Positions 5,036-22,735 of a stretch of DNA of 64,000 nt are shown here, one piece after another. The translations under genes were made by a program, and so were the position numbers. The DNA is from Umezawaea endophytica (GTDB lineage Bacteria > Actinomycetota > Actinomycetes > Mycobacteriales > Pseudonocardiaceae). Below the pieces are notes generated by a model. The model was given only the letters and a program-made list of their open reading frames with translations. It was not told the origin of the DNA and ran no database searches. Within the stretch, counting starts at the first letter, position 1. Each line of letters opens with the position of its first letter. The DNA lies in NCBI RefSeq assembly GCF_025061645.1, contig NZ_JANYMP010000021.1:80494-144493 (forward strand), read 5' to 3'.

Positions 5036-6325
5036 CTACTCCCGTCGGAGGGGTGCGACGCCCGGTGCCCCGCCTTCCTGACCGATCTCCGGCACCCGCC
5101 GCACGGCCAGCGCGCCCGCGATCCCCAGTAGCGCGAGGAAACCGAAGAACGCGGTGTACCCACCGAGGCCGAGCAGCAGCGGCGCGGACAGCGGGACGAG
5201 CGACTGCGGCAACATGTTCGCGATGTTGACGATGCCGAGGTCCTTGCCCGCGTTCGCACCGTCCGGCAGCACTCGCACGCACATCGCCAGGTCCACGGCG
5301 AGGAACATGCCCATCCCGAGGCCCATGACGCCCGCCGCCACGAACACGACCGCGAGCGACGGCGCGAACGCCAGCAGCGCCATCGCCGCCACGCCGATGA
5401 ACGCCGACACCACCACGAACGGCTTCTGCCTTCGCACCACGTCGGACAGGTGCCCCGCACCGAGGCTCGCGAGGATCGCGGTGGGCACGAGGATCATCGA
5501 CCACACCAGCACGAGCCCGCCGACGTCGGCCCGACTCACCCCGAACCGCTGGATCAGGTACAGCGAGACGTAGCTGCCCGCGGCGTAGGTGGCGGTGATG
5601 AGGAACCGCACCAGCCACGCCCAGCCGAAAGCGGGGTACCGGCGCGGATCGAGCAGGAACGTCCGCAGCGCCGAGCGGATCCCGCCGCGCTCGTTCGTGC
5701 GCGGTTCGGGCCTGCCCTCGCGGATCAGCAGCACCGACACCACGCCCGCGACGGCGGCGATGGCGGCGACGACCTGCCACTGGAGAGCCGATCCGGCGGG
5801 CAGCGCGGTGACGACCGCCAGTCCCAGCAGCGGCGCGAGCGGGATGACCAGGCCGAGGAGCCCGGAGGCCAGGCCACGCCGCCGCGGGGGCACCTGGTCG
5901 GCGAGCACGGCCACCGTGGCGGACTGCTGGAAGCTGAACAGGGCCTTGGCCACGCACCACAGCAGGACCACCTCCCACACCGCCGACGTCTCACCGAGGA
6001 CGACCACCACGGCCGCGCCGGCGAGCGCCCCGAAGAGGATCCACGTTCGCCTGCGGCCCAGCGCGAACGTCGTGCGGTCGCTGATCCGACCCGCGACCGG
6101 GGTGAACACCAGCACGACGACCGCGCCGAGACCGGTGGCCAGACCGAACGCGTCCGTCGCCGCCCCGGTGTCGTCGGTCAGGTCGGTCAGGCGCAGCGTC
6201 AGCAGCAGTTGCAGAGGGGTGATGATCGCGATGTACACCCCGAACTGCGACGTCAGCAGCGCGGCGGCCAGCCTGCCGAACCGAGTGGTCCCGGTCGGTC
6301 CGGTCGTGGGGGCGTCGACGCTCAT
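5036..6325 (-). CDS. MFS transporter
   Basis: This 429-residue major facilitator protein has about twelve hydrophobic segments and a loop GRISDRTTFALGRRRTWI between helices 2 and 3, close to the GPH/SLC45 pattern. The ATG at 6325 has a GGAGA ribosome site; the reading frame continues upstream without one. It is tail-to-tail with gntR and head-to-head with the aminotransferase gene at 6610, sharing a 284-base AT-richer region. It could be the exporter of the terpenoid cluster or a second uptake system; its similarity to the transporter at 2788-4092 in loop type fits uptake as well as export. Confidence 0.75.
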   Translation of the reverse strand: MSVDAPTTGPTGTTRFGRLAAALLTSQFGVYIAIITPLQLLLTLRLTDLTDDTGAATDAFGLATGLGAVVVLVFTPVAGRISDRTTFALGRRRTWILFGALAGAAVVVVLGETSAVWEVVLLWCVAKALFSFQQSATVAVLADQVPPRRRGLASGLLGLVIPLAPLLGLAVVTALPAGSALQWQVVAAIAAVAGVVSVLLIREGRPEPRTNERGGIRSALRTFLLDPRRYPAFGWAWLVRFLITATYAAGSYVSLYLIQRFGVSRADVGGLVLVWSMILVPTAILASLGAGHLSDVVRRQKPFVVVSAFIGVAAMALLAFAPSLAVVFVAAGVMGLGMGMFLAVDLAMCVRVLPDGANAGKDLGIVNIANMLPQSLVPLSAPLLLGLGGYTAFFGFLALLGIAGALAVRRVPEIGQEGGAPGVAPLRRE

Positions 6326-6609
6326 TCCGTTTCTCCTTCGCGGGCGCTTGGAAGAGGTGGGACTCGCGGTCACGGTTGACGCAAAGGGGATGGCGGCAGG
6401 CCACCAGCCGGGAATCTTCCAGAGGTAATCCGATGTCGGTCAACCGCTGAAATGGTGAATATCGGTTACCGTCCGGTTAAGGGGGAACGATTTCCTGGTT
6501 GAGACGGAGACCTTGACGTGATCAGCGCGTAATCGTTAACGTTTTCCTCGATTTGATCGGCGCAAAGTCTGACCGAATGCGGTTCGCCTCACCGGGAAAG
6601 GCTGGTCAC
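6326..6609. promoter_or_regulatory. divergent promoter region at the left edge of the terpenoid cluster
   Basis: This non-coding stretch is clearly richer in A and T than its surroundings. It holds CCGCTGAAA (6444-6452) and CCGGTTAA (6473-6480). Both words also occur in the region before the aminotransferase-prenyl synthase fusion at the other end of the cluster. No confident -35/-10 pair was chosen. Confidence 0.4.
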
Positions 6610-7653
6610 GTGACCCGGATCGTCCATCAGCTATCCCTCAACGAGAACCACTCGCCGCCCTTGCCGGGTGTGCACGAGGCATTGGCGAGTTCGTTGGACC
6701 ACGTCCACCTCACCCTTGACGCGCTGGCCGACGGCCTCACGTCGGAGCTGGCCGGGCGCTTGGACCTCGACGTGGAGCGGGTGGTGGCCGGAGCCGGGTC
6801 AGGGGCACTGCTCCAGCAGTTCCTCACGGCGCACGCCGGGGCGGGCTCGACGGTCGTCCACACCTGGCCGTCGTTCGAGATGTACCCCCTGCTGATCCGC
6901 AACGCCCTGGCCGAGCCCGTCTCCGTGTCCGGCCCCGACGACCGGCAGGACCTGAACGCCGTGGTCGCCGCCGTCACCCCGGACACCAGGATCGTCCTGC
7001 TGTGCAACCCGAACAACCCCACCGGCGAGGTCCTCGACGCCGCCCGGCTCCGCGACCTGCTCGACGCCCTGCCGCCGCACGTGCTCGTGCTCGTCGACGA
7101 GGCCTACCGGGAGTTCGCCGACCCGGAGGTGATCGCCGACGCCGTCGAACTGGCCAGGACCGACGACCGGGTGGCGGTCGTCCGGACGTTCTCCAAGTCC
7201 CACGGACTGCTGGGCCTGCGCGTGGGGTACCTGGTGGGGGCGGTGGAGGTCGTCGCGCCGCTGCGCCTCACCACGCCGTTCTACCGGGTCCCGACCGTCG
7301 CCCAGACCGCGGCCCTGGCCGCGCTCAAGGCCGAGCCCGAGATGCGGGAGCAGTGCGAACGGGTGGCCGCCGAGCGCGACCGCGTCCGGTCGGGGCTGCT
7401 GGACCTGGGCCTCGACGTGCTTCCCAGCGGCGGCAACTTCCTGTGGCTGCGACTCGGTGCGCGCAACCAGCGGTTCGTCGCGCACCTGGCCGCCGCGGGC
7501 ATCGCGGTCCGCGTGCTGGCGAACGGCGCCGGGGTCAGGGTCAGCACAGGTACCCCCGAGGCCAACGACGCCGTCCTGCGGGCGGCGGGTCGGTTCGCCA
7601 CCGAGCCCCGCACGGGATCGCGGACGGTGTCGGCCGGGACGAACGACGGGTGA
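6610..7653 (+). CDS. PLP-dependent aminotransferase, HisC-like (fold type I)
   Basis: The 347-residue protein is a class I/II aminotransferase closest in pattern to histidinol-phosphate aminotransferases. NPNNPTG and DEAYREF mark the cofactor pocket, and FSKSHGLLGLRVG carries the lysine that forms the Schiff base. The GTG at 6610 is chosen because GGGAAAGG lies eight bases upstream and because it aligns with the start of the related domain in the fusion protein (shared HQLSLNEN near the N-terminus); an earlier in-frame start at 6553 would add a non-matching stretch. It has a close relative in residues 1-345 of the protein at 15333-17333. A hairpin follows the stop. A general histidine-pathway role is unlikely in this setting; it probably supplies or consumes an amino acid used by the terpenoid pathway. 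Confidence 0.85.
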   Translation: MTRIVHQLSLNENHSPPLPGVHEALASSLDHVHLTLDALADGLTSELAGRLDLDVERVVAGAGSGALLQQFLTAHAGAGSTVVHTWPSFEMYPLLIRNALAEPVSVSGPDDRQDLNAVVAAVTPDTRIVLLCNPNNPTGEVLDAARLRDLLDALPPHVLVLVDEAYREFADPEVIADAVELARTDDRVAVVRTFSKSHGLLGLRVGYLVGAVEVVAPLRLTTPFYRVPTVAQTAALAALKAEPEMREQCERVAAERDRVRSGLLDLGLDVLPSGGNFLWLRLGARNQRFVAHLAAAGIAVRVLANGAGVRVSTGTPEANDAVLRAAGRFATEPRTGSRTVSAGTNDG

Positions 7654-7657
7654 TCGG

Positions 7658-7685
7658 GGCACCCCGACCGGTTGTCGGGGGTGCC
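7658..7685 (+). terminator. hairpin after the aminotransferase gene
   Basis: GGCACCCCGAC and GTCGGGGGTGCC can form an 11-base-pair stem with one bulged base around a 5-base loop, beginning five bases after the stop codon. It could end or attenuate the aminotransferase transcript before the cyclase-like gene, which has its own ribosome site 66 bases further on. Confidence 0.6.
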
Positions 7686-7751
7686 GCGCCCGGTCCGCGA
7701 TCTCCACCCGTGATCAGTTCCCGGTCCTCCTGCCGGGTGAGAGGAACGCGC

Positions 7752-9443
7752 ATGACTTCGGTGCACATCAATCCCGATCCCTTCACCGACGTGCTGGGGA
7801 ACGCGATCACCGAGGGGGCCGAAGCCCTGTTCCGGGCCCAGCGACCCGACGGCGTGTTCGACTACGGCGAAGACAGCCTGACCTCGACCCTGGGCACGGT
7901 CGGCGCGGTGTCCGCGCTGCACTTCGCCGACCCCGCCGGCAGCGCCGACCTGATCGCCGCGGGCGCCGGGTGGCTCGGGCGCACCCAGAACGACGACGGT
8001 GGCTGGGCGATGGTCCCCGGCCTGTCGAGCGAGGCGGGGCCGACGGCGGTCGCCTCCGCCGTCCTCCACCTCGTCGACCCGGAGAGCAGCGCGACACGGG
8101 TGGCCGCCGGGCAGCGCTGGATGGACGACCACGGTGGCCTGGACGCGATCCCCCATCCCGAGGTCGTCTCCTGGTGCCGCCAGTACTACGGCTTCGCGGG
8201 CTGGCTCGCGCAGGAGGACATGCGCCGCTTCCCGCTGGAACTGGCGCTGGTGCCGAGCCTGTACCGCAAGCTGTTCGACCTGCGCCTGCCGATGGCTTCG
8301 GCGCTCGGTCTCGCCCAGGCCAGGCACAAGCCGCTCACCAGGGTGCAGCGGGTGCTGGCCCGCTGGGCGGAGCCGAACGCGCTGAAGGTGATCCGGCAGG
8401 TCTACGAGCACGAGGGCTCGACCGGGGCCTGGTGCGAGAACGCGTGGGTCACCGGACTGGTCTGCACCGGGCTGGCCCGTGCCGGCCTGGCACCGGACAT
8501 GGTCGCCGCCGCCGTGGGGTGGTTCCACCGGTCCATGGCGGCTGACGGCTCGTGGGAGACCGGCCCGCTCGACGCGGCCTGGACGATGTACGCCGCACGC
8601 GGTCTCGCCGAGGCGGGTTACGCCGACGACCCGCGGCTGACCGCCTCGGTCCGGTTATTCGTGCGCCTCCAGCAGCACCGCCCGTTCCTCGCGTTCGGAT
8701 GTCCACCGGGCTACTGGGGGTGGGCGGGCACCGAGGGCTGGCCCTCGACGCTGGAGACGGGGGAGATCCTTTCCGTGCTGTGCAGGCTGCCGGGGGACGA
8801 GCAGGCGAACGCGGTCGAACGGGGCGTCGACTGGCTCACCCGCGTGCAGGACACCCGCGGGTCGTGGGGGCTCTGCGTGCGCAACACCAGGGTGGCCAAC
8901 AGCGGGCCCTGCCCGATGACGACGGTGCAGGCCGTCGACGCCCTGCTCGACGCGGGCGTCCCGGCCGACGATCGCCGGGTGCGTCGTGCGCTGGGCTGGC
9001 TCGCCAAGGTCCAGAGCCCGGAGGGCACCTTCGAGTCGGTGTGGTATCGGCACCACACCATGGCCACCGCGGCCGTGCTGGAGACCTTCTCCAGGGTCGG
9101 ACGCGCCGGTGACGAGCCCGCCCGCAAGGCGGTGGCGTGGCTGGAGGCCACCCGGCTGCCCGACGGGTCGTGGGGCGACGGGGCCGGTGCTCCGGGCACG
9201 GTCGAGGAGACCGGATGGGCGGTGTCGGCCCTGGTGGCCGCGGGCGCCGACCCGGCCACCGTGCGCTCCGGCGTGGACTGGTTGCTGGAGCGCAGGCACC
9301 AGCCCGGCGGCGGGTGGCCCGCGGAGAACGTGCACGAGTACGTGCGCTTCGTGAGCCGGTACACCAACCCCGCGTTCGCCAACGGGATGGCGCTGCGCGC
9401 ACTCGGCCGCTACCGGACGGCGATCCGGCGCTCGACGTCGTGA
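7752..9443 (+). CDS. squalene-cyclase-fold protein lacking the DxDD acid
   Basis: The 563-residue protein has the repeated alpha-alpha barrel pattern of the squalene-hopene cyclase/prenyltransferase superfamily, with QW-like repeats such as TQNDDGGW, RVQDTRGSWG, LPDGSWGDG and HQPGGGWP. In hopene cyclases the general acid sits in a central DxDDTA motif. The matching stretch here reads GWPSTLETGEIL, so the key aspartates are replaced by S, L and E. I found no DxDD elsewhere. The ATG at 7752 follows GAGAGGAA. It lies 43 bases before the P450 gene on the same strand. It may cyclise an epoxide made by the FAD enzyme using a different acid, or it may bind rather than protonate the polyene. The fold call is strong, the reaction unknown. 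Confidence 0.8.
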   Translation: MTSVHINPDPFTDVLGNAITEGAEALFRAQRPDGVFDYGEDSLTSTLGTVGAVSALHFADPAGSADLIAAGAGWLGRTQNDDGGWAMVPGLSSEAGPTAVASAVLHLVDPESSATRVAAGQRWMDDHGGLDAIPHPEVVSWCRQYYGFAGWLAQEDMRRFPLELALVPSLYRKLFDLRLPMASALGLAQARHKPLTRVQRVLARWAEPNALKVIRQVYEHEGSTGAWCENAWVTGLVCTGLARAGLAPDMVAAAVGWFHRSMAADGSWETGPLDAAWTMYAARGLAEAGYADDPRLTASVRLFVRLQQHRPFLAFGCPPGYWGWAGTEGWPSTLETGEILSVLCRLPGDEQANAVERGVDWLTRVQDTRGSWGLCVRNTRVANSGPCPMTTVQAVDALLDAGVPADDRRVRRALGWLAKVQSPEGTFESVWYRHHTMATAAVLETFSRVGRAGDEPARKAVAWLEATRLPDGSWGDGAGAPGTVEETGWAVSALVAAGADPATVRSGVDWLLERRHQPGGGWPAENVHEYVRFVSRYTNPAFANGMALRALGRYRTAIRRSTS

Positions 9444-9486
9444 CCAGGCACTCCCACCAGGACGCTCCAGGAAGCGGAGAACCCCG

Positions 9487-10713
9487 ATGACCCGTGCGAC
9501 GGACGAAGGCTCCTTCACCGAGGACTACTGGCGCGACCCGCACGAGACCCTCGCCAGGACGCGGGAGAGCAGCCCTGTCCGCGAGGTCGTGTTCGAGACG
9601 GGGCCGACCTGGCTGGTCACCCGCTACGCCGACGTGCGTGCCGGGCTCACCGACGCACGGCTCGCCAAGGACTGGCGGTCGAGCCTGCCCGAGGACGAAC
9701 GGGCCTCGGCGCCTCCGGGACTGCCCGCTCCGATGTCGCACATGCTGACCTCCCTCGACCCACCGGAGCACACCCGACTGCGGAACCTGGTCGTCCAGGC
9801 GTTCACCGCCCGCCGGATCGCCGAACTGCGCCCACGGGTCGAGGCCGTCGCCGCCGAACTGCTCGACGCGTTGCCCGAGGACGAGCCGGTCGACCTCGTC
9901 GCCCGGTACGCGATCATCCTGCCGATGGTGGTGATCTGCGAACTGCTCGGCGTTCCCGAGATCGACCGCGAGGAGTTCGCCCGGCTGTCGACCGTCCTCA
10001 TCGACGAGTGCCCCGAACCGGAACTGGTCCTCGCCTCCACCCAGATGGCCGACTACCTGGAGGGCCTGGTCGCGGCCAAGCGCGCGAACCCCGACCAGGC
10101 GCTGCTGTCCGCGCTGATCACGGCATCGGACGAGGGCGACCGGCTCTCCGACCTGGAGATCGTGGCGATGGCCATGCTGCTGCTCATGGCGGGCCACGAG
10201 ACGACCGCCGTGTTCATCACCAACAGCGTCCGCGCCCTGCTGGCCGACCCGACCGGACTGGACCGCCTGGCCTCGCCTTCGTCGGCCCCGTCCCTGATCG
10301 AGGAGCTGCTGCGCTGGCTCTCGCCCGCGATCAACGCCTCGCTGCGCTTCGCCACCGAGGACCTGGAGATCGGCGGGGTCCCGATCCCCAGGGGAGCGTC
10401 GGTGATGCTGTCCACAGGCGGTGCCAACCGTGACCCGGCACAGTTCCCGGCGCCTGCGAGGTTCGACCCGGACCGCGACACCGCGGGTCACCTGGCCTTC
10501 GGCCACGGCATCCACCGCTGCCTGGGCGCGGCCCTGGTCCGCCTGGAGGGTGAGGTGGGCCTGTCCGCCCTGTTCACCCGCTTCCCGCGGCTGCGCGTGG
10601 CAGCCGACCCCGCCGACCTGACGTTCCGCCGCAGCGTCCACGTGCACGCCCCACGCACGTTCCCGGTCGTGCTCGGCCCACGTGCCTTCCCGATCGGGCG
10701 GGCACACCACTGA
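9487..10713 (+). CDS. cytochrome P450
   Basis: This 408-residue soluble bacterial P450 shows the I-helix oxygen motif AGHETT, the K-helix ExxR in EELLR, and the haem loop FGHGIHRCLGA with the cysteine ligand. All key residues are intact and length is normal. It follows the cyclase-like gene after 43 bases with GGAAGCGGAG upstream of the ATG, so both are likely co-transcribed. By context it hydroxylates or otherwise oxidises the terpenoid scaffold late in the pathway. It needs separate ferredoxin and reductase partners, none of which are encoded in this window. Confidence 0.9.
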   Translation: MTRATDEGSFTEDYWRDPHETLARTRESSPVREVVFETGPTWLVTRYADVRAGLTDARLAKDWRSSLPEDERASAPPGLPAPMSHMLTSLDPPEHTRLRNLVVQAFTARRIAELRPRVEAVAAELLDALPEDEPVDLVARYAIILPMVVICELLGVPEIDREEFARLSTVLIDECPEPELVLASTQMADYLEGLVAAKRANPDQALLSALITASDEGDRLSDLEIVAMAMLLLMAGHETTAVFITNSVRALLADPTGLDRLASPSSAPSLIEELLRWLSPAINASLRFATEDLEIGGVPIPRGASVMLSTGGANRDPAQFPAPARFDPDRDTAGHLAFGHGIHRCLGAALVRLEGEVGLSALFTRFPRLRVAADPADLTFRRSVHVHAPRTFPVVLGPRAFPIGRAHH

Positions 10714-10843
10714 TCCGGTCCTACCCGACGACGCGCCTCCCCCGTGACCGGCCACGGTCCGCCGCGACGAACCTGTCGTCTCGACGTTCTGCGGCCGGTC
10801 GCCGGGCCTGGCAGCGGGTACTCCTCCGCGGCCCCGCCCCGTG

Positions 10844-11677
10844 TCACTCCTTCACCGTCGTCGCCGACATCCCCGCCTCCTGGAACTTGCCCCAGCGCGG
10901 CTCCGCCCCGCGCGGCTCGTCACCCATCACGGTCACGCGCCGCCCCACGCGGCGCCCCGCGTAGTCGTTCACCGCGTAGTGCTGGGTGGCCCTGTTGTCC
11001 CACAGGGCCACCGCACCCTCCACCCAGCGGTAGCGGCAGGTGCGCTGTGGGCTCTCCGACACCGCGAACAGGTGCTCCAGCAGCGCGTCGCTCTCGCCCT
11101 TGGCGAGTTGGAGGACGCGACGGGTGAACATGCGGTTCACGTAGAGGCTCTTGCGGCCGGTCACCGGGTGCGTCCGGACCACCGGGTGCTCCGCCTCACT
11201 GCGGAACGTGCCGTTCGGGTGGACGAACAGGTGCGCTGCCGTGGTCCCCTCCAGCAATTCCCGCATCGGTTCCGACAGTGCCTCGTAGGCGAGGTACTGA
11301 TTGCTCCACATCGTGTCACCGCCTGATTCCGGCGTCAGCGTGAGTTGCAGGACCGAAGCGATGGGCGGACTTTGGGAGAATGTCACATCGGTGTGCCACA
11401 CATCGGCACGCGCGCCCTGGTCGGAGTCCAGCACGACGATTTTCTCGTGCCCTGCCAGCTTGGGCAGGAAGGGGTGCACCTCCAGTTCCCCGAACCGGCT
11501 GCCGAACGCCTCGTGGGCCTGCGGGGTCAGGCCGCCCGCGTCCGGGAAGACGAGCACCAGATGGCGCATGAGCAGGTCATGGACCTCCTTGAACTGCTCG
11601 TCGTCGACTGACCCCAGATCGACGCCGTACACCTCGGCTCCGAGCGAACCGGAAATCGGGCGAACCTGCAATGGCAT
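10844..11677 (-). CDS. TauD/TfdA family Fe(II)/2-oxoglutarate dioxygenase
   Basis: The 277-residue protein is a TauD-type iron and 2-oxoglutarate-dependent oxygenase. The iron-binding HxD is in VWHTDVTFS; the distal histidine and the 2-oxoglutarate-binding arginine lie in the C-terminal DNRATQHYAVNDYAGRR region. The N-terminal PISGSLGAEVYGVDL is typical. The ATG at 11677 follows GAGGAGAAAGG by nine bases and matches the family start. It converges on the P450 gene and is divergent from the methyltransferase gene. A tailoring hydroxylation, desaturation or oxidative cleavage on the cluster product is inferred; taurine use is unlikely here. Confidence 0.85.
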   Translation of the reverse strand: MPLQVRPISGSLGAEVYGVDLGSVDDEQFKEVHDLLMRHLVLVFPDAGGLTPQAHEAFGSRFGELEVHPFLPKLAGHEKIVVLDSDQGARADVWHTDVTFSQSPPIASVLQLTLTPESGGDTMWSNQYLAYEALSEPMRELLEGTTAAHLFVHPNGTFRSEAEHPVVRTHPVTGRKSLYVNRMFTRRVLQLAKGESDALLEHLFAVSESPQRTCRYRWVEGAVALWDNRATQHYAVNDYAGRRVGRRVTVMGDEPRGAEPRWGKFQEAGMSATTVKE

Positions 11678-11847
11678 GTCGTACACCTTTCTCCTCACGC
11701 GCATGGCGGAATTCCGCACACGCATTGTGCGATACGGTCGACACGAATAGAGGAACGCTTCGAGCCACTCTTGACCACACTCGTCGAACGATGTCAGGAT
11801 CTTCGTGGACAAATTGTTTCTCGCGCTACCGAGGGGAATCCATCGGA

Positions 11848-12840
11848 ATGACCGCACAGGACGAGTTGGCGAAGATGATCGACCTCGCGACGCCGTTCGC
11901 GGTCCGGGTGGCCGTCACCCTGCACCTGCCCGAGCTGATCGACAGCGGTACCACCGGGCTCGCCGACCTCGCCACCGCCGCGGGAGCCGACCCCGACGCG
12001 TTGCGCAGGCTGCTGCACCACCTCGCCTCCATCGGGTTCCTGGCCGAGCCGGGGCCCGGCACCTACGCGTTGACCGACGTGTCGCGCGTGCTCCTCGGCG
12101 AGGACCACCGCGCGGCGCGGCGGTGGCTCGACAGCGAGGGGCCGGGAGCGAGGATGGACCTCGCCTTCGCGGGCATGGCGCACTCGGTGCGCACGGGCGA
12201 GTCCGCCTACGGCGCGGTGCACGGCGTCCCGTTCTGGGACGACTACGGCGCCGACGAGGAGCTGCGGATCTTCTTCGGCGAGGTCATGGCCGTCCACGCC
12301 TGGCAGACCGGTCCGGTCCTGGCCACCGAGTGCGACTGGGCGTCCAGCAGGCGGGTGCTGGACGTCGGCGGTGGCGTGGGCGCGCTGCTGGCCGAGGTGT
12401 TGAAGGGCAACCAGCACCTGACCGGCGCCGTTCTCGACCTGCCTCCGGTCGAACCGGACGCCACCACCGCGCTGGAGGAGGCCGGGCTGTCCGACCGGGC
12501 CACGTTCGTGCCCGGCAGCTTCTTCGACCCGCTGCCCACCGGCTACGACACCTACGTGATCTCGCGGGTCATCACCGACTGGGACGACGAGGACGCGCTG
12601 CGGATCATGACCCGCGCCGCCGAGGCCGTCGGCACCGGTCGGGTGCTGGTCGTGGAGGTGCTGGCCGGACCGGAGCACGCCAAGAACAACTCGTCGTTCG
12701 ACCTCCAGTCGCTCGCCCTGCTCGGCGGCCGGGAGCGCACGGAGGACGACTTCACGGCCCTCGCCGAGCGCGCCGGGTTCGCCACCGCCACCGCCCGCCG
12801 CTGGGACAGCGGCCTGCTCGTCGTGGAGTGCAGGCTCTGA
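11848..12840 (+). CDS. SAM-dependent methyltransferase, O-methyltransferase fold, catalytic His replaced
   Basis: The 330-residue protein has the two-domain layout of COMT-like methyltransferases: an N-terminal winged-helix dimerisation domain (about residues 10-95) and a C-terminal Rossmann domain with the SAM motif VLDVGGGVG. In most relatives the base is a histidine in a LHDWxDE segment. Here the stretch reads VITDWDDE, so threonine stands in its place. This may mean C- or N-methylation, a different base, or a non-methylating role as known for some members of this fold. The ATG at 11848 is preceded by only a weak GGGGAA site. The gene is divergent from the TauD gene, with its upstream region shared. 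Confidence 0.8.
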   Translation: MTAQDELAKMIDLATPFAVRVAVTLHLPELIDSGTTGLADLATAAGADPDALRRLLHHLASIGFLAEPGPGTYALTDVSRVLLGEDHRAARRWLDSEGPGARMDLAFAGMAHSVRTGESAYGAVHGVPFWDDYGADEELRIFFGEVMAVHAWQTGPVLATECDWASSRRVLDVGGGVGALLAEVLKGNQHLTGAVLDLPPVEPDATTALEEAGLSDRATFVPGSFFDPLPTGYDTYVISRVITDWDDEDALRIMTRAAEAVGTGRVLVVEVLAGPEHAKNNSSFDLQSLALLGGRERTEDDFTALAERAGFATATARRWDSGLLVVECRL

Positions 12841-13031
12841 GCCGGGAGCCCCACGGGTGTGCCCGGCCGGGCGACTCCACCCGTCCGGGCCCTCCGCGAT
12901 CACGTGCTCGGCAAGACCGGGTGAAGGCGTCCGCGGGGGCGCGAACGCGGTCGGCCGCCGCCTGCCGGGCGGCTCCCCCGGAGCGGACGGGCACGCGACC
13001 CGCGGCGCGGATCCCCGAGACCGGTGCGCGG

Positions 13032-14297
13032 TCACCGCGACCGCGCCCAACCCGGCAGCCGACCGCCCCTCGGGTCGGGCAGCACGCCGAGTTGGTGCAG
13101 CCGGTCCAGCGGGCTCAGCGAGTGCTGTCCCAGGCCCGCCATGTTGTGCATGATCGTGTACCGCAGCCGCTGGTTGCCGCCGGTCTTGCGCAGTGCGCGG
13201 CGGCCCAGCACCCGGACGAGCGGCGACAGGTCGCTGATCATGCGGGTGGCGTTGTGGCTGGTCGTCCCGACGTGCGCCAGCGCTTGCCTGCGCTCGGTGC
13301 TCCACTCGCGCAGCGGCGGTGCCAGCAGGTCCGGTGACAGGTCGCCGTCGAGCGCGCGCAACCGCGCGGCGAGGCCCGCCGCGTCCAGGATCGAGCTGTT
13401 CATGCCCTGACCCGCCGCCGGGTGCACGGCGTGCGCGCTCTCCCCGATCAGGACGAGCCCGTCGGCGGTCAGCGACGTGGCCAGCGCCCGGCCCACCGGC
13501 AGCACCTGCCGCGTCGACCACGCCCGTGCGACGTCCTCGCGCAGCGGGGCGAACGCCGGGACGTCGCGCACCAGACCGTCGATCCACCCACCCGCCCCAC
13601 CCGCGCCCACACCCCGCAGCTCGTCGGGTCCGACCTGCACGTACAGCCGTGCCCGGTCACCGGGGAGCGAGTACCTCATCGCCAGGCCCCGCGGGGTCGC
13701 GTAGGTGGACACGTGGTCGCCGAACGCCTGGTCGGTCAACTCGAACGCCGCCAGCCGGTGCGCGTAGTCGACGCGCGCGACCTCGATCCCCGCGCCGCGG
13801 CGCAACCGCGAGGACACCCCGTCGGCCGCCACGACCAGCGCTGCCGTCAGGTCTCCGCCGTCGGTGCGCACACCCGTCGTGCGACCGCGTTCGTCGCGCA
13901 CGAGCTCCCGCACCAGCACCCCGCGCCGCAACTCGACCGAGACCGGCAGGGTGCGGATCAGCGCACCCAGGATCACGTGGTAGTCGTGCACGAGCAGCCA
14001 CGGCCGCTCGGTGGGCAGCGCCCCGTAGTCCATGGTCATCAACACCGCGCCGTGCGGGTCTCGCGCCACCAAGCCCGACAGGCGCAGCGCGCCGTCGGTG
14101 TCCAGCGCGTCGGCGACCCCCCACTCCGCGAGCACCCCCGTCGCGCCGGGTTGCAGCAGCTCGCCCTTCGGCACGGACCTGATCTCGCGCTGCTTGTCCA
14201 GCACCAGCACGCGAAGGCCGAGTCCGCCCAGCGCGTGCGCCGCCGCGAGCCCGGCGACCCCGGCCCCGCACACCACCACGTCCACGTCGGTGCTCAC
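13032..14297 (-). CDS. FAD-dependent monooxygenase, epoxidase-like
   Basis: This 421-residue protein is a group A flavin monooxygenase. It has the dinucleotide motif GAGVAGLAAA at residues 11-20, a DG segment (VVAADGVSSRLRR), and the second FAD motif LIGESAHAVHPAAGQGMN, in which GE replaces the usual GD. Related enzymes epoxidise the terminal double bond of prenyl chains in squalene and bacterial or fungal meroterpenoid pathways; others hydroxylate aromatics. Next to a UbiA prenyltransferase and a prenyl synthase, epoxidation ahead of cyclisation is the most likely role. The start is GTG. The UbiA gene ends 49 bases upstream on the same strand, so the three minus-strand genes form one unit. 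Confidence 0.85.
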   Translation of the reverse strand: MSTDVDVVVCGAGVAGLAAAHALGGLGLRVLVLDKQREIRSVPKGELLQPGATGVLAEWGVADALDTDGALRLSGLVARDPHGAVLMTMDYGALPTERPWLLVHDYHVILGALIRTLPVSVELRRGVLVRELVRDERGRTTGVRTDGGDLTAALVVAADGVSSRLRRGAGIEVARVDYAHRLAAFELTDQAFGDHVSTYATPRGLAMRYSLPGDRARLYVQVGPDELRGVGAGGAGGWIDGLVRDVPAFAPLREDVARAWSTRQVLPVGRALATSLTADGLVLIGESAHAVHPAAGQGMNSSILDAAGLAARLRALDGDLSPDLLAPPLREWSTERRQALAHVGTTSHNATRMISDLSPLVRVLGRRALRKTGGNQRLRYTIMHNMAGLGQHSLSPLDRLHQLGVLPDPRGGRLPGWARSR

Positions 14298-14346
14298 GCA
14301 CCACCCCGTTCCCGGTCGGGACGGCCCGCACAGGAGGACACGCGCG

Positions 14347-15330
14347 TCATGGGGCGATCACCTTCCGAAGTCCGGACGGGGGGATCTCGTACCTGGTCCG
14401 CATGGTGTTCTGGGTGATCACGCTGAACGCGACGATCGGCACCAGCACCGCCACCGCGAGTGACACGCCCACACCGGCCGCGGCCACCGCGCACGCCAGC
14501 ACGAGCCGTTCGACCACCAGGACCTCGTGGGCGCGCAACGCCGACTCGCGGGTGATGCCGTCCCCCTGGGTCAGCAGCCCCCCGAACACCCACGCGCCGA
14601 TCGCGGTGGCCACCACCAACAGCGCCAGGTAGGAGGTGTGGTCCGGCAACGGCACCAGCACGGACGCCACGGCCGCGGCCAGCGCCAGGCCGTAGAGGGA
14701 CTGCGCCAGACGCGCGCCGTGGGCGACACCTCGGAGCACCGGCACGGACCGGTACCCGCCCGCCTCGTCGCCCTCCACGTCGCGTACCGCGCCGACCAGG
14801 TTGGACGCGGCGTCGTGCAGCAGGAACACGACCGCGAACGGCACCGCCGTCCACAGGTGGCCGCCGGGCACGCAGGTGGCACCCGCGAGCACGGCCAGCG
14901 AGGTCAGCGCACCGCGCACCAGGTTGCCGGAGATGCCGCGCCCCTTGCACACGCGGCTGTAGACGACGATCCCGACGACACCGACCACCAGGAGCACCAG
15001 CAGCCGCCAGCCCACGGCCACCGCCACCACCGCCGCGCACACCTCGCACACCACCGCCGAGATCAGCGCGGTGCGCGGACTGAGCCGCCCCGACGGTATG
15101 GGCCGCTGCGGCTTGTCGATCGCGTCCAGGTGGCGGTCGAGCCAGTCACCCAGGTAGTGGCCGCCCAGCCAGACCAGCACCGGGATCACCACCGCCGCGA
15201 CGAGGTGCCCTGCCCCTGGTGCGCCGCCCACCACTGACGCGCCCGCCCATCCGACGGCGCCGGGGTAGAGCAGCGTGTAAGGGCGCCACGTCTGAACGTG
15301 CGCCTCGACGATTCCCCGCCAGGTCGCCAC
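14347..15330 (-). CDS. UbiA family membrane prenyltransferase
   Basis: The 327-residue protein has eight to nine hydrophobic segments and both UbiA metal-binding motifs. The first appears as GDWLDRHLD followed by KPQRPIPSG, where the usual leading asparagine is glycine. The second is VRDVEGDEAGG (DxxxD). Such enzymes transfer a prenyl chain from its diphosphate to an acceptor, and a few relatives are membrane terpene cyclases. The GTG start lies two bases after the stop codon of the upstream fusion gene, so translation is very likely coupled and prenyl diphosphate may be handed over directly. The acceptor is not identifiable; no aromatic-ring biosynthesis gene is nearby. Confidence 0.85.
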   Translation of the reverse strand: MATWRGIVEAHVQTWRPYTLLYPGAVGWAGASVVGGAPGAGHLVAAVVIPVLVWLGGHYLGDWLDRHLDAIDKPQRPIPSGRLSPRTALISAVVCEVCAAVVAVAVGWRLLVLLVVGVVGIVVYSRVCKGRGISGNLVRGALTSLAVLAGATCVPGGHLWTAVPFAVVFLLHDAASNLVGAVRDVEGDEAGGYRSVPVLRGVAHGARLAQSLYGLALAAAVASVLVPLPDHTSYLALLVVATAIGAWVFGGLLTQGDGITRESALRAHEVLVVERLVLACAVAAAGVGVSLAVAVLVPIVAFSVITQNTMRTRYEIPPSGLRKVIAP

Positions 15331-15332
15331 GG

Positions 15333-17333
15333 CTACCGCCTCCGGTCGACCGACATGTCCGCGACCTCCGCGAGCATCGCGGTGTACTCGTTGGGGAGCA
15401 GGTCGACCAGGTAGGACTTCGCGAGTGCGATCTCGGCCTCGGCGTGTTCCAGCCCCCGTTTCAGCACTCCCGCCTCGTCGAACACGTCCCGAAGCGTCGC
15501 GAACGCCTCATCCGGCGCCAGTTCGCCGCTCAACGCGCTGACCACCCTCGCGCGCTGCTCCGCCGTGCCCGTCTCGTGGGCGAGCAGCACCGGGTAGGTG
15601 GGCCGCTGGTTGCGCAGGTCGCTCAACCCGGACTTGCCGGTGACGGCGGGGTCGGCCAGGTAGGGCAGCAGGTCGTCGTACATCTGGAACGCGAGGCCGA
15701 GGTGCTCGGCGAACTGGCCGAGCGCGTCGACCGCGGCCGGCTCCGCGCCACCGAGGACCGCGCCCGCCCGGCACGCGCCGCGGAACAGCGCCCCGGTCTT
15801 GAGCGCCATCACCTCCAGGTGCTCCGACAGCGGACGCGAGGGGTCGGCGGTCATCACACCCTCCAACGCCTGGCCGCGACACACGTCCACCCCGGCGTCG
15901 GAGATCGCGCGCACCGCCTCCAACGCGGCCGCCTCCGGCACACCGCGTTCCACGCTCTCCGCCACCGAGCCGAACGTCCGCAGCATCAACGCGTCACCGG
16001 TGACGATGGCGTCGGACACACCGAAGCGGTGCTGCACCGAAGGCCTGCCCCGACGGGTCTCGTCGTCGTCGATCACGTCGTCGTGAACCAGCGATCCGAC
16101 GTGCAGGTATTCCACGGCGAGCGCGGCGGGCACGACCCGTTCCACGTCCCCGCCCACCGCGCCCGCCGCGGCGGTGAGCAGCAGTGGCCGCAGCATCTTG
16201 CCCGGCGCGAGCAGCGCGTAGCGGGCGATGTCGAGCACCGGGTCGTGCCGCGCGGGCCACTCGCCGTGCAGCGCCTCGCGCAGCCGGGCCACGACCGCCT
16301 CCGCGGCGGCGGAGAAGCCCTTGCGGGTGTACTGCGCGACCAGGGCGATCACCGCGTCGTTGGCCTCCCGCGTCCCCACGGTCACCCGGATGCCGAGGCC
16401 GTCCACCTCGCTGACCGCGATCCCGTGCCCGGACAGGAACTCCACCAGCGGGCGGCCTTCGGTACCCAGCGGAAGCCACAGGTAGTTGCCCGCGCTCGGC
16501 GGCACCGACAACCCGTGGTCCACCAGTGCGGCCCGCAGCCTCTCCCGCTCAGCGCACACCGCCGCGCACCGCGCGCGCATCTCCTCCTCGGCGGCCAGCG
16601 CGGCGATGGCCGCGGCCTGCGCGACCGTGCTGACGCGGAAGAACGGCGCGGTGCCGCGCAGCGGCGTGACGACCTGCTCCGCCGCCACGAGGTAGCCCAC
16701 GCGCAGGCCCAGCAGCCCGTGCGACTTGGAGAACGTGCGGACCACCACGACGCGGGGGTCCTCCCGGTACAGCGCCAGCGCGTCGGCGATCTCGCCGGGG
16801 TCGCAGAACTCGCGGTACGCCTCGTCCACGATCAGCAGCACGTCCGGTGGCAGCGCGTCGAGCAGCCGCCGCACCTCGGAGTGGCCGAGCACGGCGCCGG
16901 TGGGGTTGTTCGGGTTGCACAACAGGACGGCCTTGGTGCGCGACGTCACCGCGGCGGCCATCGCGTCGACGTCCGTGCCGTAGCCGTCTTCCAGCGGCAG
17001 CTCGATCGGCGTGGCACCGGTGTTGCGCACGAGCGGCCCGTACCCCCAGAACGAGGGCGAGGCGTGCACGACCTCGGCGCCCGGCCCGGCTATCCCGGTG
17101 AGCAACTGCTGGAGCACCGCACCGGAGCCCGCTCCTACCATCACGTCGGAGGCGGGTACTCCGAGGTGGACCGCGAGCGCGGCGGTGAGTCCACCGGCGA
17201 GCGCGTCCAGGGTCAAGTGGGGGTGATCGGCGGCGTCGATCACGGCTTCCCTGACTCCGGGCAGTGGAGGGGCGAAGTTTTCATTGAGCGAAAGCTGGTG
17301 GATGATCTTCGGCACGCTGAGGTCCCCGTTCAC
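15333..17333 (-). CDS. aminotransferase-polyprenyl diphosphate synthase fusion
   Basis: The 666-residue product joins two enzymes in one frame. Residues 1 to about 345 form a HisC-like aminotransferase with NPNNPTG, DEAYREF and the lysine motif FSKSHGLLGLRVG, closely related to the protein at 6610-7653. From about residue 350 to the end is an all-helical polyprenyl synthase with KMLRPLLL, first Asp-rich motif DDVIDDDETRRGRP, KTGALFRGACRAG and second motif YDDLLPYLADPAVTGKSGLSDL. The fifth position of the second motif is not Asp, which is tolerated in many actinobacterial GGPP synthases. The junction is in-frame with no stop or start signal visible inside. The product probably makes a C20 or longer diphosphate for the adjacent UbiA enzyme. 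Start is GTG with a weak AGG upstream. Confidence 0.9.
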   Translation of the reverse strand: MNGDLSVPKIIHQLSLNENFAPPLPGVREAVIDAADHPHLTLDALAGGLTAALAVHLGVPASDVMVGAGSGAVLQQLLTGIAGPGAEVVHASPSFWGYGPLVRNTGATPIELPLEDGYGTDVDAMAAAVTSRTKAVLLCNPNNPTGAVLGHSEVRRLLDALPPDVLLIVDEAYREFCDPGEIADALALYREDPRVVVVRTFSKSHGLLGLRVGYLVAAEQVVTPLRGTAPFFRVSTVAQAAAIAALAAEEEMRARCAAVCAERERLRAALVDHGLSVPPSAGNYLWLPLGTEGRPLVEFLSGHGIAVSEVDGLGIRVTVGTREANDAVIALVAQYTRKGFSAAAEAVVARLREALHGEWPARHDPVLDIARYALLAPGKMLRPLLLTAAAGAVGGDVERVVPAALAVEYLHVGSLVHDDVIDDDETRRGRPSVQHRFGVSDAIVTGDALMLRTFGSVAESVERGVPEAAALEAVRAISDAGVDVCRGQALEGVMTADPSRPLSEHLEVMALKTGALFRGACRAGAVLGGAEPAAVDALGQFAEHLGLAFQMYDDLLPYLADPAVTGKSGLSDLRNQRPTYPVLLAHETGTAEQRARVVSALSGELAPDEAFATLRDVFDEAGVLKRGLEHAEAEIALAKSYLVDLLPNEYTAMLAEVADMSVDRRR

Positions 17334-17779
17334 CCGTCGAACCTGTCAGGGATTCACCAAAGCTGTTCCGGTCAACCTCTACCGAATTAACGGCCTACTG
17401 GGAAGGGGATTACAATCGGTATATCACCCGCTGACCGACCACCTGATAGGCGTAGAAGTTTCAGCGGCTCCGGTTAACATATAGTCAAATCGACGAATCA
17501 TAATCGCAACAGAACCCGTGATATAGCGCTCAAGGGCGACTGAGCCGTCCAGAGCAGCACTCGACTGAATGGTTCGAGGCTGTTCGTGTGACGTCGTTGT
17601 GAGACGGGACCGGGGCGGGAGCCGATATCGCGAACAACTCCGACGCGTGGTGCCGGGGATCCGGCGGGAACATGCCACCGGCAGACAGGGCAACCACTCG
17701 AACGGGCTAGGCGCCGGTCTCACGTGGCGGGTCGATCGGTGGCACACCTCGCCCGCGCACGCCCGTGACACCCCTCGAC
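17334..17779. promoter_or_regulatory. intergenic region before the fusion gene
   Basis: No gene is supported in these 446 bases. The part at about 17340-17540 is AT-rich for this genome and is the likely promoter of the fusion-UbiA-monooxygenase operon. It contains TTTCAGCGG (17459-17467) and CCGGTTAAC (17470-17478), matching on one or the other strand words upstream of the first aminotransferase gene. Nothing recognisable was seen in 17540-17779, which lies after the TetR stop codon. Confidence 0.4.
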
Positions 17780-21057: not shown

Positions 21058-21612
21058 TCAGGCCGGTTGCAGCGACGCCGGGTAGAGCCAGCTACCGGGT
21101 GTGTCCTGCGACGAGTTGGTGTAGTAGTCCTTCACCGCCGCGACGTACTCCCGCACGCTGACCGCGCCGTCGCCGTCGGTGTCGAGGTGCGTGAACGCCA
21201 GCCCGCACTCGGCCTCGCTCAGCCCGCGCGCCTTCAGCAGCACGCCGAACTCCGCCGCGTCGACCCGGCCATCGCCGTTGGTGTCCGCGATGGCCAGCAG
21301 CGACGCCACGACCTCGGGGAACACCACGTCGAACGCGCCGCCGTCGGCGAACGCCACGACCATCGCCTCCTGGTACTCCCGCGGCGAGATCAGGCCGTCG
21401 CGGTCGGCGTCGCAGTGCTCGACCAGGGTGTCCCAGAACCCGTCGTAGGCCTCGACCAGTTCTCGCCCGCGCTCCGAGGAGGCGGGTTCGCCGAAGGCCT
21501 TGAGCAGGCGGTTGGCGAGCGCGTAGAAGTCGGCGAGTTCGATCACGCCGTTGCCGTCGACGTCGTAGTGGGCGAACGTCGCGTCGATCCGGTGTCGCAG
21601 AAGCGGCTTCAT
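21058..21612 (-). CDS. four-EF-hand calcium-binding protein (calerythrin-like)
   Basis: The 184-residue acidic protein contains four canonical EF-hand loops: DVDGNGVIELAD (residues 17-28), DADRDGLISPRE (68-79), DTNGDGRVDAAE (110-121) and DTDGDGAVSVRE (144-155). All four have acidic ligands at positions 1, 3 and 5, whereas calerythrin of Saccharopolyspora, the best-known bacterial relative of similar length, has one inactive site. Loop 1 ends in Asp instead of Glu. It lacks a signal peptide, so it is a cytoplasmic calcium buffer or sensor. No Shine-Dalgarno site is evident before the ATG at 21612. It lies 94 bases after the LacI gene on the same strand. Confidence 0.88.
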   Translation of the reverse strand: MKPLLRHRIDATFAHYDVDGNGVIELADFYALANRLLKAFGEPASSERGRELVEAYDGFWDTLVEHCDADRDGLISPREYQEAMVVAFADGGAFDVVFPEVVASLLAIADTNGDGRVDAAEFGVLLKARGLSEAECGLAFTHLDTDGDGAVSVREYVAAVKDYYTNSSQDTPGSWLYPASLQPA

Positions 21613-21706
21613 GGTCAGGCACTGTGGTTCGACCCGCCGGTGAACGCAACGCACGTCGCCCACCCGAGTGGTGTTGTTCAGCCGGTCCAGCCCCTCCTGC
21701 CGCCGG

Positions 21707-22735
21707 TCACGCCGACTGGCGGACCACCAGCGTCGGTTCGAACACCACGGACGTGACGCGGCGGTCCTGCCTGCCGATGCGGTCGAGCAGCAGGCTCGCC
21801 ATCTCGGCCGCCATGTCCTCCACGGGCTGGCGGACGGTGGTGAGGGCGGGGCGGCTGGCGGTGGCGGCACTGCTGTCGTCGAAGCCGATGACGGCGACGT
21901 CGTCGGGCACGCGGCGGCCGTGGTCGCGCAGCACGTGCAGGGCGCCCGAGGCCATCAGGTCGTTGGCGGCGAACACGCCGTCGACGTCGGGGTGCTCGGC
22001 GAGCAGGCGTTCCATGGCGCGCTCGCCGCTGTCCAGGGTGAAGTTGCCCTCCACGAACGGCGCCTCGGGATTCCCGTGGCCCACCCAGGCCTCGCGGAAC
22101 CCGGCCAGGCGCTCCTGGCTGGCGGGCACGTCGAGCGGGCCGGAGATGGTCGCGACGCGGCGGCAGCCGCGGGCGACGAGGTGGTCGACGGCGAGCCGCC
22201 CGCCTTCGCGGTGGGCCAGGTCGACGAAGCTGATCGGCAGCGGCCTGGTCGGGCGGGCGAACAGGACCGAGGGCACGTTGGCGGCGACGAGCATCGCGGG
22301 CAGCGGGTCGGCGGAGTGGATGGCGACGACGAGCGCGCCGTCGGCGTTGCCCTGCCGCAGGTGGTCGACCACGTGCGCGCGGGTCTCGGGCGTGTCGGCG
22401 AACATCAGCAGCGGGTAGATGCCGCGCGGTCGCAGCGCGCTGATGATGCCGCTGGCGACCCGGCCGAAGAACGGGTCGACCAGGATGTCGCCGCCGAAGT
22501 CGCCCGCGCCGGAGACGACCAGCGCGATCGTGCCGGTGCGGCGGGTGACCAGTGAGCGCGCCGCCGTGTTGGGCGTGTAGCCGGTCTTGGCGATGGCCCG
22601 CCGCACGGTCTCCTGGATGACCGGGTCGACGTTGCGGGTCGTGTTGATCACGCGCGACACCGTCGCCCGTGACACCCCTGCCACCCGTGCCACGTCCTCC
22701 AACGTGGGAGGACGTGCCTGGGACGCTGCGCTCAT
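21707..22735 (-). CDS. LacI family transcriptional regulator
   Basis: The 342-residue protein has a LacI helix-turn-helix at residues 10-30 (TLEDVARVAGVSRATVSRVIN), a hinge helix ending in NTAARSLVTRRTG, and a periplasmic-binding-protein-like sugar domain ending in TTVRQPVEDM. It is divergent from the GH3 glycosidase gene, and the region between holds three copies of GGAGAGCGCTCTCC. Regulators of this type are released by a sugar, so this one probably derepresses the glycosidase when a plant- or cell-wall-derived oligosaccharide is present, and controls itself. Confidence 0.9.
   Translation of the reverse strand: MSAASQARPPTLEDVARVAGVSRATVSRVINTTRNVDPVIQETVRRAIAKTGYTPNTAARSLVTRRTGTIALVVSGAGDFGGDILVDPFFGRVASGIISALRPRGIYPLLMFADTPETRAHVVDHLRQGNADGALVVAIHSADPLPAMLVAANVPSVLFARPTRPLPISFVDLAHREGGRLAVDHLVARGCRRVATISGPLDVPASQERLAGFREAWVGHGNPEAPFVEGNFTLDSGERAMERLLAEHPDVDGVFAANDLMASGALHVLRDHGRRVPDDVAVIGFDDSSAATASRPALTTVRQPVEDMAAEMASLLLDRIGRQDRRVTSVVFEPTLVVRQSA

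Follow-up and report, generated by a model that had tools for sequence, protein, structure and literature searches.

An aminotransferase-prenyl diphosphate synthase fusion in a terpenoid gene cluster of Umezawaea: a probable lineage-specific join of neighbouring genes

The stretch of DNA analysed here (the window; 64,000 nucleotides of contig NZ_JANYMP010000021.1 of Umezawaea endophytica) contains, on the minus strand at 15333-17333, a single 666-codon frame with a GTG start that encodes a 666-aa protein in which a HisC-like aminotransferase (AT1) is joined to a prenyl diphosphate synthase (PPS). Pfam recognises both halves, Aminotran_1_2 (PF00155) at residues 13-328 (E 5e-48) and polyprenyl_synt (PF00348) at residues 367-602 (E 9.3e-56), which confirms the uninterrupted fused frame reported in a preliminary description of this DNA; a 723-aa frame on the opposite strand (15219-17390) fails the codon-position filter and is taken as a high-GC shadow. 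The fusion and the genes that accompany it are the following:

5036..6373, minus strand: MFS transporter adjoining AT2, with a putative role in export (PF07690)
6553..7653, plus strand: AT2, a free-standing aminotransferase 59% identical to AT1 (PF00155), placed in the tree with the aminotransferases of P450-bearing clusters
7761..9443, plus strand: squalene-hopene-cyclase-like (SHC-type) terpene cyclase (PF13243/PF13249)
9487..10713, plus strand: cytochrome P450 (PF00067)
10844..11677, minus strand: TauD-family Fe(II)/2-oxoglutarate dioxygenase (PF02668), start set at a conserved Met
11848..12840, plus strand: O-methyltransferase, OMT (PF00891 and PF08100)
13032..14297, minus strand: FAD-dependent monooxygenase, FMO, a likely prenyl epoxidase (PF01494, E 1e-24)
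14347..15330, minus strand: UbiA-family prenyltransferase (PF01040, E 7e-33)
15333..16307, minus strand: PPS, the C-terminal trans-prenyl diphosphate synthase domain of the fusion, residues 343-666 plus stop (PF00348), with the motifs DDVID and DDLLP
16290..16325, minus strand: AT1-PPS junction, residues 337-348, with a possible internal GTG start at Val348, at the place where an ATGA/GTGA overlap is usual in unfused relatives
16326..17333, minus strand: AT1, the N-terminal PLP aminotransferase domain of the fusion, residues 1-336 (PF00155), with N140, N143, D170, Y173, K203, R211 and R316

The MFS gene adjoins AT2 also in U. tangerina, G002, G067 and Actinosynnema. Farther out in the window lie an AtuA-family protein (acyclic terpene utilisation) at 348-1745, about 5 kb before AT2, and, at 21058-21870, a protein with several EF-hand domain matches.

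Class I aminotransferases are distinguished by a Schiff-base lysine together with PLP-binding Asn, Asp, Tyr and Arg residues, and in AT1 of the window the entire set listed above is present. The best profile match of AT1, to the PRK03321/HisC-like aminotransferases (E 1.2e-99), shares this full catalytic set, but AT1 differs from that family in its fusion to PPS and in scoring under the curated cut-offs, so that an identification as HisC does not hold (TIGR01141/NF002878; hisC 217 against a cut-off of 276.55, and 333.5 against 374); the closest solved structure by sequence is 4r2n, a putative phenylalanine aminotransferase. The PPS half combines the polyprenyl_synt domain with the first Asp-rich motif of trans-isoprenyl diphosphate synthases (HDDVID). 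The motifs quoted in the preliminary description are all there; the second Asp-rich motif is DDLLP in the window rather than the canonical DDxxD, and of 23 aligned rows 22 have P as its fifth residue and one has S. The top profile matches of the PPS half are Family 2 encapsulin cargo polyprenyl transferase and IdsA-type synthases; it reaches, however, half the cut-off score (223.3 against 450), and no encapsulin was found among the window proteins scanned.

How widespread is the fusion? Within the family of the window, 45 of 390 genomes match the AT/PPS query. Five of these carry the full fusion, namely the window's own genome (G000), G001, G002, G033 and G067, the fused frames of the other four being 85%, 87%, 81% and 75% identical to that of the window, respectively; in three more, PPS sits in a long frame that turned out to be what is left of a fusion after erosion. 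The remaining 37 gave separate AT and/or PPS matches only. The preliminary description had proposed a search for the same domain order in other genomes, and the four further fusions answer it; because the same frame recurs in them, an assembly error as the source of the fusion is ruled out. When 84,980 species genomes were scanned by pattern, the best 80 of 564 relatives included full-length fused frames in L018 and L019, the eroded fusion L020 and unfused pairs in L021-L024, the other 73 being partial query matches only. Of 394 genomes sampled from the class, ten matched at E<=1e-82 and, beyond the window's own, only G609 has both halves, unfused. A literature search covering titles and abstract openings, with most subscription journals outside its coverage, did not turn up an AT-PPS fusion.

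The comparison of whole clusters covered 24 of the 45 family genomes with a match (the window, L018, L019, L022 and 20 further regions). Across 27 related loci, picked for matching the AT/PPS query and 26 of them distinct (L020 and L124 are the same locus), tblastn matched AT, PPS, UbiA, the SHC-type cyclase, the FAD monooxygenase and TauD in all 27, OMT in 26 (all but L137, which is G208), the P450 in 18 (some of the matches weak) and the MFS transporter in 11. The amino step and the prenyl chain, earlier surmised to belong to one pathway, thus share a conserved cluster that also encodes a UbiA prenyltransferase. Residues D62, D65, D69, D184 and D188 of UbiA are each conserved in at least 26 of the 27 rows. 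SHC-type class II cyclases carry a catalytic DXDD motif; in a weak alignment of the cluster's cyclase to 3sqc, CVRN occupies that position and no DXDD is visible, and N375 and N380 are near-invariant in the 27 rows. In L022 the cyclase was matched in two pieces (L022:5259-6906, as 5259-5777 and 5779-6906), a possible frameshift. P450s at least 70% identical to that of the window are confined to the Umezawaea/G067/Actinosynnema group plus G212, G278, G211, G331, G345 and G333. The same core is present in G049 (L153), with most genes at 45-60% identity and the P450 at 35-38%, and also in G609, although OMT was not detected in the G609 stretch.

AT stands directly before PPS in 20 of the 27 loci; L139 is cut by the contig end inside AT, and in L132, L135 and L136 AT lies away from PPS. 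Fifteen unfused pairs of adjacent AT and PPS genes were examined, and 13 of them have an ATGA/GTGA overlap in a fitting frame, L022 and L024 being the two without it; by eye, the fusion differs from the unfused arrangement in that about ten N-terminal PPS residues and the overlap are replaced by a short linker. In the PPS tree all eight members with a fused or eroded frame group together in a single clade (100/100), which makes one origin the simplest reading. The ancestor would thus have had AT and PPS head to tail, mostly with the overlap and hence translationally coupled, and a small change at the overlap would have fused them once, in the Umezawaea/G067/Actinosynnema lineage.

The presence of a second aminotransferase appears to have a different history. 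In the trees of AT2, the cyclase and TauD, this lineage groups with the P450-bearing clusters (G212, G278, G211, G331, G345, G333), and in those of PPS, UbiA, OMT and AT1 it does not. In topology tests for which the groups were picked after the trees had been seen, and from which, for UbiA, cyclase, PPS, OMT, FMO and TauD, G208 and G269 were left out, the cyclase-like topology is rejected by UbiA (p 0.0015) and the other one by the cyclase (p 6e-10). TauD gives p 0.038 (p 0.106 when its sequences were too long and two rows were lacking), PPS (p 0.067) and OMT (p 0.101) do no more than lean towards a mosaic, and FMO is indecisive (p 0.345, own support 41/38). The deep placement of AT1 is unsure because it sits on a long stem (0.4) in the AT tree. 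A recent duplication within the lineage as the source of AT1 and AT2 was discarded, the single-clade topology being rejected (p 0.001, G208 left out). The second block of the fusion lineage (AT2, cyclase, P450, TauD) resembles a sister version of the pathway, and two homologous versions may have merged, bringing in the second aminotransferase.

Both aminotransferases are retained in the window, U. tangerina and G002. In U. beigongshangensis, AT2 (L018:19518-19766) is a frameshifted fragment, recognisable at residues ~15-67 and 104-128 in different frames, and the fused AT1 is kept, the fusion being the only match in that genome at E<=1e-82. Conversely, AT1 of G067, compared with 25 reference aminotransferases that included G208 and G401, has lost the catalytic Lys203 (K203Q) and carries N143D, N19H and other changes; the lysine is kept in 29 of 30 aligned cluster aminotransferases, eroded copies and fragments left out. 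A D170G change is seen in the aminotransferase of G345 (L135:13874-14818). In the three Actinosynnema genomes the frame keeps its start, VNGDLSVPNIVH, and runs for 557-576 aa, with an AT part of 233-252 residues that is devoid of NPNNPTG, DEAYREF and FSKSHG; AT2 is intact. The dN/dS values of this AT1 remnant are 1.11, 1.00 and 0.77, against 0.15, 0.15 and 0.17 for PPS in the same frame. In a comparison of Umezawaea and G067, the values are 0.30-0.46 for AT1 (10 pairs), 0.26-0.37 for AT2 (6 pairs) and 0.25-0.62 for PPS. All eight genomes with fused or eroded frames have at least one aminotransferase with its catalytic residues, and AT1 and AT2 look interchangeable; either might be lost because both would serve one step. 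This impression derives from few events: those in a single genome each of U. beigongshangensis and G067, and an AT1 loss that the three Actinosynnema genomes probably have in common. One observation counts against redundancy: the U. beigongshangensis AT1 pairs (0.34-0.46) are not below the others, although this AT1 is the sole intact aminotransferase of its cluster.

Does the fused frame yield one protein or two? A GGAGG lies 5 nt ahead of the GTG at Val348 in the window, and GAGG with the GTG also occurs in L018, L019 and L120, as would be expected if a free PPS were made from an internal start alongside the fused protein. We consider such a pair of products very unlikely, given that the Val348 codon is GTC in G067 and that the three Actinosynnema copies, which keep the GTG, have no GGAGG, while their frame stays open across neutral indels. 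In a nucleotide alignment of these three species, every internal gap of the eroded fused frame is a multiple of three, and the sole other gaps, of 1 nt, fall upstream of its start; these gaps weigh more than the absence of stops as evidence of a single frame, since the chance that a shuffled remnant is free of stops is ~0.05 for each. The gap pattern thus supports translation of AT1-PPS as a single chain. In G002 (L120:6351) a one-base shift close to the usual GTG start gives GERGPSVP in place of VNGDLSVP, so the fused frame there would begin further upstream.

If AT1-PPS is one chain, is the joining required? The preliminary description attached importance to the physical coupling, and one might imagine that selection for channelling or a fixed stoichiometry has produced a genuinely bifunctional enzyme, with halves that the pathway needs joined, the more so as the catalytic residues of both domains are intact in four genomes and the dN/dS of AT1 is as low as that of PPS. 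The comparative record speaks otherwise: most related clusters examined have separate AT and PPS genes, AT1 is dead in G067 and largely gone in Actinosynnema, with AT2 kept and PPS constrained, U. beigongshangensis shows the reverse, and PPS, the substrates of which are DMAPP and IPP, has no intermediate in common with AT. Such an obligatory enzyme accordingly strikes us as improbable, and we favour, as the probable reading of these sequences, a lineage-specific join of coupled neighbours that is redundant through AT2 and not an obligatory channelling enzyme. The G067 pairs of AT1, at dN/dS 0.31-0.36 despite the absent lysine, also fit a loss that is very recent or a role other than catalysis. 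Since class I aminotransferases are dimeric, the fused domain could be a non-catalytic partner that pairs with AT2 and tethers it to PPS, but the loss of most of AT1 at neutral rates in Actinosynnema and the lack of an intact AT2 to tether in U. beigongshangensis make this highly doubtful. A bolder version, in which fused AT1 is shifting from enzyme to assembly part and mixed AT1-PPS/AT2 dimers gather the keto-acid and prenyl supply at the membrane prenyltransferase, is a long shot; if true, these dimers would be a new kind of terpenoid metabolon caught in the middle of its evolution.

What the aminotransferase would do in the pathway is a related question. On the preferred reading of a redundant join, AT would convert an amino acid, perhaps an aromatic one, to its 2-keto acid, PPS would make a prenyl diphosphate, perhaps C20, and UbiA would couple the two; the FAD enzyme would then epoxidise, the cyclase close the rings, and OMT, TauD and the P450 tailor the product. 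The fusion would hold the two supply enzymes at equal amounts, yet the pathway would not need it. UbiA, an FAD epoxidase and an SHC-type cyclase also serve in actinobacterial routes to terpenoid hybrids such as atolypene, phenalinolactone/tiancilactone and brasilicardin, which the Umezawaea cluster may resemble in gene content. In the zigralone (zig) cluster of Micromonospora zingiberis, an aminotransferase, proposed to act first, a polyprenyl synthase and a UbiA-like prenyltransferase are proposed to build, from L-tryptophan, DMAPP and IPP, an indole intermediate bearing a prenyl chain; the products were still made in a heterologous host after deletion of zigA, the aminotransferase gene (PMC13307353). 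Compared by description, both clusters have this trio; in zig, however, AT and PPS are encoded separately and are accompanied by a Pyr4-like cyclase, a TPP enzyme of two subunits and an epoxidase of the P450 type, whereas the Umezawaea cluster has an SHC-type cyclase, an FAD monooxygenase, TauD and the fusion. No TPP enzyme appears in the Pfam matches of the genes at 5036-17333 and, judged by Pfam assignments rather than a Pyr4 profile, no gene there is left over for a Pyr4-like cyclase. An Actinomadura locus, L027, was set aside as a zig-like relative, only PPS (43%) and P450s (27-28%) matching. An amino-acid-derived acceptor for UbiA is a guess to which the zigralone logic lends plausibility (PMC13307353), and supply of such a keto acid and of the prenyl chain for UbiA is the likely role of the fusion. 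The aminotransferase could instead act late, aminating a terpenoid keto acid to give an amino-acid-bearing terpenoid; brasilicardin A, which joins a diterpene skeleton to an amino acid component (PMC10301674), is a precedent, and the OMT, TauD and P450 genes would suit late steps. Against this stand the position of AT immediately before PPS in most loci and the early action proposed for the zigralone enzyme, and we regard a late role as rather unlikely.

The history outlined here amounts to a natural gene-fusion experiment, in which coupled neighbours were joined once and then either the fused domain or its free twin was lost in sister species. These reciprocal losses bear on the question whether the fusion is functional or merely tolerated. 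Beyond the fusion itself, the matches to the AT/PPS query in 45 of the 390 family genomes point to a family of such clusters.
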